Assembly (NCBI RefSeq): GCF_000003815.2
Contig: NC_049994.1
Coordinates: 18,228,824 to 18,292,823, forward strand
Source: Branchiostoma floridae
Taxonomy: Eukaryota > Chordata > Leptocardii > Amphioxiformes > Branchiostomatidae
DNA: 64,000 bases
Direction of reading: 5' to 3'
The translations under genes were made by a program, and so were the position numbers. Below, one piece after another: positions 28,664-51,358 of the stretch. The notes beneath the pieces were generated by a model that saw nothing but the letters and a program-made list of their open reading frames with translations, did not search any database and had not been told where the DNA came from. Numbering within the stretch: the first letter of the stretch is position 1; the number at the start of each line of letters is the position of its first letter.

Positions 28664-28840
28664 ATGTCGTCACTACCGGGCAGCTCCAGGCCGCTTCATC
28701 GGGGAAGGTCGCCCCACGGCCCGACTAAAACCACCGGAAAGCCTCGGTACAGCTACCTGCTACCTCGGACTGACTTAAATGGTTGCCGGCGTTCGTGGAT
28801 TGTGGGTACAGGACCGGCAGTTTACATTGGCCAAGTACCG
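28664..28840 (+). CDS. Receptor R first coding exon
   Basis: Acceptor gtacttcag, then GGAG and ATG at 28664; 59 residues ending IGQVP with donor gtaacg. The right arm has TTG where the left arm has an upstream ATG, which supports the inner ATG as the start in both genes. The C-terminal part has diverged from L and lost the RRHVKPRNK segment. Confidence 0.7.

Positions 28841-51358: not shown

Follow-up and report, generated by a model that had tools for sequence, protein, structure and literature searches.

A lancelet family of predicted type II receptors with a shared sushi chassis and differing terminal exons

Gene A of Branchiostoma floridae probably encodes a type II receptor for recognition or adhesion, and belongs to a family that we read as having a fixed anchor and stalk with exchangeable phase-1 terminal exons. 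It occupies positions 28664–51358 on the plus strand of the window, by which we mean the whole 64,000-nucleotide stretch that was analysed. Gene structure, paralogs, module order and the differences in tips and motifs were all read from the DNA itself. On this reading gene A is a real gene, and its product a probable surface protein with a back-to-front anchor and a sugar-binding tip. The first-pass annotation of the window had recognised this architecture; it had missed a second gene of the same kind (gene B), the wider family, which numbers at least 17 loci, and the VWA or IgGFc_binding tips that some members carry in place of the lectin.

Rebuilt from raw sequence, gene A comprises 30 phase-consistent exons with GT/AG ends and a single stop, in a continuous frame that opens with the ATG at 28664 and closes with the stop at 51356–51358. 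Exons were placed using open frames, splice-site scores and phase; low-scoring sites, such as the exon 2 donor and the exon 5 acceptor, fell below the listing threshold of 3 and were retained on phase. The model holds 1806 codons with the first donor at 28840 and 1793 with the donor at 28801, which is also in phase. Exon 1 probably ends at 28840, which we preferred because the same donor context is found in gene B. From the N-terminus, the modules run in the order hydrophobic segment, sushi modules, EGF, sushi, 11 near-identical EGFs, two sushi and C-type lectin. Pfam searches were run on the spliced exons, a six-frame scan of the raw DNA being set aside for its stop codons. Pfam Sushi matched at 112.8 bits (E = 9.8e-33; five stretches, exons 6–16) and again at 78 bits in two stretches ahead of the lectin (E value in Table 1), against a cut-off of 20.7, and no Pfam match fell within the N-terminal 487 residues.

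Table 1 Features of genes A and B, by position in the window.
Feature	Position	Strand	Observation
Gene A exon 1, first part of the predicted cytoplasmic tail, ending YIGQVP	28664..28840	+	Same ATG and donor context at 25506..25315 in gene B
Gene A exon 2 (uncertain), basic cytoplasmic stretch	29849..29949	+	Evidence limited to phase and splice dinucleotides; donor weak
Gene A exon 3, long charged tail with 23 KEK units spaced by 10–12 aa	30574..31405	+	Spacing is in whole codons
Gene A exon 4, predicted signal-anchor / transmembrane exon	32579..32810	+	Kyte–Doolittle 2.86; basic residues on N side
Partial second transmembrane-exon copy	32897..32971	+	Just downstream of exon 4
Gene A exon 5, Pro-rich juxtamembrane stalk	33353..33511	+	Gene B shares 50 of 52 aa
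Gene A exon 6, sushi-like start and ~106-aa segment; family marker	33968..34456	+	
Gene A exons 7–15, sushi modules and one EGF	34809..38363	+	Conserved in gene B
Gene A exon 16, sushi	38846..39071	+	60/75 aa identical in gene B
Gene A exons 17–27, 11 EGF exons of 114 nt each, phase 1-1, ~377-nt period	44163..48038	+	Pfam EGF
Gene A exons 28–29, two six-cysteine sushi	49311..50137	+	Pfam Sushi 6.9e-22
Gene A exon 30, C-type lectin bearing EPN and WND, followed by the stop codon	50961..51358	+	Lectin_C 2.9e-20
Gene B, 19 exons, 1133 aa, gene A chassis, four C-terminal sushi	15954..25506	-	Found by searching the window with the gene A model
Interval between divergent genes A and B	25507..28663	.	

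Other features of the window were noted in passing. By eye, an open frame at 13113–14612 on the plus strand reads as a C2H2 zinc-finger array, and zinc-finger-like tandem repeats at 801–1739, 5262–6297 and 55098–56888 flank the receptor pair on both sides. A 36-nt tandem repeat at 48994–49199 is open on the minus strand. Downstream of gene A, an open frame at 51757–52044 presumably resembles the end of a LINE-type element.

Gene B is a head-to-head paralog whose splice sites were picked by matching gene A. Junctions and phases of exons 4–16 are identical in the two genes, and the 16 shared exons gave pS 0.238, pN 0.104 and dN/dS 0.39, with the highest ratios in exons 7 (0.80), 10 (0.79), 29 (0.64) and 1 (0.59). 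In exon 1, 32 of 59 residues are identical (pS 0.41, pN 0.28). Among the 12 introns compared across exons 4–16, five had no alignable match, one was mostly covered and six were partly covered. Conservation in gene B thus supports exons 1, 4–16, 28 and 29 of gene A as coding, a support that does not extend to exon 2 or to the repeat of exon 3. Within the window, gene B has neither an EGF array nor a lectin. Upstream of the two genes, 27954–28460 (gene A) and 26910–26410 (gene B) are 76% alike over 524 nt; a shared promoter, a 5′ exon and a repeat are candidates for this likeness.

We searched the window's own genome (513,431,437 bases) with a query running from the anchor to exon 6, and obtained at least 51 matches. 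At least 17 loci, genes A and B included, match exon 6 nearly full-length, and seven of them are clustered at C8:22.31–22.48 Mb. Fifteen members were read: A, B, the seven in the C8 cluster (200 kb) and six single stretches starting at exon 6 (g1–g7 and L029–L034 below are our labels); two loci of 54% identity at C8:0.62–0.64 Mb were left out of the reading. The eight chassis exons that we compared are present in all 15, and a match to the transmembrane exon adjoins every member except the one on C7. Supporting the model of gene A, the stalk order with a terminal lectin recurs on one strand at seven loci besides A, the lectin lying 0.2–3 kb past the last sushi. The type II order, sushi stalk and terminal lectin proposed in the first-pass annotation are supported, all three being repeated across paralogs.

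The hydrophobic segment of exon 4 has a Kyte–Doolittle mean of 2.86, against 1.38 for the runner-up in gene A, and the first 40 residues contain no strong hydrophobic stretch. These data bear out the earlier proposal of a single internal hydrophobic helix after basic residues and no signal peptide. Exon 4 is conserved in gene B and in the seven C8 members (dN/dS 0.28 over nine genes). Across ten transmembrane exons (A, B, seven from C8 and L030), two to four Lys/Arg occur in the 20 residues before the segment and one after it; gene A has three before and one after, a modest positive-inside bias. The predicted topology is type II and single-pass, with a cytoplasmic N-terminus and the modules outside. 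In the partial second copy of this exon, seven of the eight codon differences are synonymous (20 codons compared; P = 0.0004 under a simple null of 75% nonsynonymous), and none of the acceptors listed for it has a matching phase.

The least secure part of the gene A model is exons 2 and 3. Neither gene B nor the C8 cluster has an equivalent of exon 2, and gene B also lacks the KEKSLSEE repeat found in exon 3. A tblastn search of the fetched loci with exon 2 and parts of exon 3 returned a single match (26 aa at the exon 3 end, 50% identity); as a test of the tail it covers the seven members of the C8 cluster, the ones that extend far enough upstream. The 23 KEK cores of exon 3 gave pS 0.24 and pN 0.09, a pN that leans low because the cores were chosen by the letters KEK. 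The long charged tail described in the first-pass annotation belongs to this part of the gene A model and is not common to gene B. A YxxL sequence in exon 1 of A and B was considered as a conserved cytoplasmic tyrosine motif and rejected: the four other N1 exons found among the seven C8 members read RCDHL.

Within the stalk, the ~106-aa segment of exon 6 had no match in Pfam, NCBIfam (prokaryote library) or PDB sequences, the best PDB E value being 0.82. Phase-0 introns split several sushi modules in exons 7–15, and a separate single EGF at 38204–38363, upstream of the array, scored 21.7 bits with EGF_3, below the cut-off of 28.5. The best PDB relatives of exons 28–29 are CR2, CR1 and E-selectin. 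Exon 8, a sushi half, is partly repeated two to three extra times at ~130-nt spacing in L029 (1085–1615) and L030 (8306–8652), and g5 (C8:22439805) carries one extra copy.

The terminal exon of gene A matched Lectin_C at 73.4 bits (cut-off 22.6). EPN or QPD, together with WND, are the calcium and sugar residues of C-type lectins, EPN going with mannose-type and QPD with galactose-type sugars. In gene A, EPN and WND align with those of MRC2 and CD23, a combination to be expected in a lectin that binds mannose-type sugars with the help of calcium. The nearer PDB matches were of mannose-receptor, collectin and MBP types, and no selectin was found among the best 60 of 134. Lectin-exon 3′ scraps also lie downstream of gene A, at 51493–51666 and 52295–52316.

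The tips differ between family members. Of the 15 members, 8 end in a lectin exon in the stretches read: A, L030 and six of the C8 cluster's seven. Two VWA tips (E values 5.5e-29 and 5.4e-32) come after the sushi, one in L034 and one in L029, whose stretch ends inside it, and L033 holds a VWA fragment just above the cut-off (24.4 versus 23.8 bits). Two IgGFc_binding exons (E values 5.9e-78 and 1.1e-79) likewise come after the sushi, one in g3 and the other in L030. Two members, B and L032, end in sushi with no separate tip, L032 having further sushi across 13 kb, and L031 shows a fibrinogen-like stretch that fell short of its cut-off (E = 0.055). The lectins themselves carry EPN (A, g5, L030), QPD (g2, g6), QPN (g4) or RPD (g1, g7), with WSD replacing WND in g1 and g7. 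As read from junction sequences, the VWA and IgGFc exons can enter via a phase-1 intron, as the lectin does; tips whose junctions were read are therefore exchangeable without breaking the frame.

Tip and chassis also differ in divergence. Among the eight lectin members, protein identity over the eight chassis exons averaged 0.856 (0.829–0.937) and that of the lectin 0.699 (0.633–0.797), the lectin being lower in all 28 pairs. We looked for positive selection on the lectin, and dN/dS did not show it: the CTLD ratio over seven genes (L030 omitted) was 0.46 (interval 0.34–0.61), well below 1, and the 12 other exons gave 0.25–0.40 over nine genes with an overlapping interval. The sugar loop stood at 0.55 against 0.41 for the rest, or 0.69 against 0.41 in the C8 genes alone; within the CTLD, the ratio was 0.35 for the core before the loop, 0.55 for the loop and 0.87 for the C-terminal end. 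Since the bootstraps overlap and the end at 0.87 lies outside the loop, these values establish neither a loop-specific effect nor diversifying selection. In the tree built from the chassis, with FastTree supports in brackets, genes A and B are each other's sister (0.84). IgGFc-tipped g3 groups with VWA-tipped L029 (0.987), next to lectin-tipped g4 (0.988), and VWA-bearing L034 groups with L032 (0.962). The tips thus do not simply track the chassis tree.

Two accounts would each explain this pattern: exchange of tips, or an ancestor that carried several last exons, some of which were later lost. On the second account no tips were swapped: the ancestor had alternative last exons (lectin, IgGFc_binding and VWA), its copies kept some of them, and alternative splicing makes the choice. 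L030 (C8:24377501–24387500; locus 3425–2151 and 735–307, minus strand) fits it, having an IgGFc_binding exon ahead of a lectin exon, behind one sushi and with separate stops, which makes the two candidate alternative last exons. However, two intact tips occur in just 1 of the 15 members over the stretches read, some of which end early (that of L029 inside VWA), and neither the six C8 lectin genes nor the window gave an IgGFc or VWA match at E 0.01. We regard this account as possible, leaning towards doubtful. Our preferred reading remains exchangeable terminal exons.

As to topology, surface location, ligand, calcium binding, signalling and role, we infer the following. The long charged cytoplasmic tail of gene A would be made first by ribosomes, and the internal hydrophobic segment would then serve as an uncleaved signal-anchor, so that everything C-terminal to it ends up outside. 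The Pro-rich linker, the family-specific segment, the disulfide-rich sushi modules and one EGF would together form a stalk that holds the tip off the membrane. Lectin tips would bind glycans, and the VWA and IgGFc forms protein ligands. The likely job is either to recognise microbial or self glycans multivalently or to mediate cell–cell adhesion, in both cases through the tip. The charged tail might possibly signal, a function for which its sequence offers no indication, and an immune role may be supposed. Sushi, EGF, VWA and lectin modules are also used in matrix and cell adhesion, so the receptors might serve developmental or structural adhesion instead of non-self recognition. Clustered copies with differing tips and sugar motifs look more like recognition, which is not decisive, and we would give the adhesive role a real but minority chance.

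A further alternative divides gene A into two or more genes, an upstream type II sushi protein and a separate downstream EGF/sushi/lectin gene. A 5.1-kb repeat-rich intron does separate exons 16 and 17, AATAAA occurs within gene A at 49268, 50310 and 50915, and gene B ends without a lectin; against these stand phases that agree throughout gene A, the absence of a signal peptide when the lectin exon is read back to its nearest ATG, and the seven other loci that match in order, strand and placing of the lectin exon. We consider the division improbable. The first-pass annotation had itself named separate transcripts for the transmembrane exon, EGF array and lectin exon as grounds for abandoning its model; for anchor, stalk and lectin, paralogy appears to have answered that concern.

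The EGF array is the part of the stalk peculiar to gene A. On two submitted repeats, Pfam EGF gave E = 1.5e-13. EGF, like Sushi and Lectin_C, was above cut-off, whereas EGF_CA reached 23.2 bits on two repeats against a cut-off of 27; the calcium-stiffened rod envisaged in the first-pass annotation was not borne out by that score, and the repeats contain what we take to be a PROSITE-type calcium-binding EGF motif. A relation to teneurins was rejected, the EGF_TEN match scoring 31.6 bits on one EGF repeat only (cut-off 65). Array exons diverge by 3.1% on average, versus 14% and 17% in the flanks (10 of 11 units compared upstream, with the gap-side copy omitted, and 11 of 11 downstream), with pS 0.086 and pN 0.012. 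Because an assembly gap (N, 44748–44898) lies within the array, the copy number is provisional. A two-repeat query at E 0.01 found no such array in the C8 cluster or the six single stretches, and none was seen in gene B, which completes the 14 other members over the stretches read, so the EGF rod stands for gene A and, at 1 of 15 members, not as a general design. The stalk of gene A would have been lengthened by recent expansion of a single phase 1-1 EGF exon to 11 copies; with one EGF ~3 nm long, the array would add roughly 30 nm. That gene A is an unused, decaying or assembly-inflated copy, its array collapsed or expanded by assembly, is highly improbable: the gap, the near-identical units and the downstream lectin-exon scraps (51493–51666) favour it, but the 1806 codons contain no stop or frameshift, all splice dinucleotides are intact and pN in the EGFs is far below pS.

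Several known systems resemble parts of this design. Outward from the membrane, selectins share with gene A the succession of sushi stalk, EGF and lectin tip. Selectin sushi have a six-cysteine pattern, six cysteines are seen in exons 28 and 29 of gene A, and E-selectin is among the best PDB relatives of its sushi. However, selectins are type I with an N-terminal CTLD, whereas in gene A the transmembrane segment precedes all modules, which come in reverse order; gene A also has extra sushi beyond the EGF, and its family's tips vary between copies. Because the polypeptide runs the opposite way, the receptor is not a selectin. In predicted topology the product of gene A resembles the type II CTLD receptors of groups II and V, its sequence fitting a cytoplasmic N-terminus, a signal-anchor and a C-terminal CTLD. 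DC-SIGN, langerin, CD23 and ASGPR have type II anchors with short coiled or repeat necks, and these C-terminal-CTLD receptors were found among the PDB matches of gene A; they differ from it in that its neck is built of sushi and EGF, and in that a family tip can be non-lectin. According to the portion of the source available, lancelets gain domain combinations faster than other animals and their shuffled exons are biased to 1-1 phase (PMC4284660), a likeness to the present family in phase and in the many new domain pairs. B. floridae is credited with 300 CTLDcp genes, its lectins being expanded (PMC10140915, available portion). The accessible parts of these two sources describe no type II chassis and no tip differences. 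Group XIV CTLDs such as CD93 and CD248 likewise combine CTLD, sushi and EGF in a single membrane protein, but are type I with an N-terminal CTLD (PMC9167495, available portion).

Among the matches listed from the open-licence literature, available in part, we recognised no paper describing the gene A family, which may be annotated in lancelet protein databases without one. We tentatively propose, at a little short of an even chance, that the family is an innate receptor system in which one type II sushi chassis has its tip varied by exon exchange (perhaps also inside a single gene, through alternative last exons), by changes in the sugar-binding letters and by lengthening of the stalk through an EGF array. 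Gene A would build the selectin-like surface layout of sushi, EGF and lectin in the opposite polypeptide direction. The family offers a definite group of paralogs whose constant and varied parts are separable, and so makes testable the long-standing question of whether shuffled receptors diversify recognition or merely drift. Differing tips on one stalk could be a way of varying what cells recognise.
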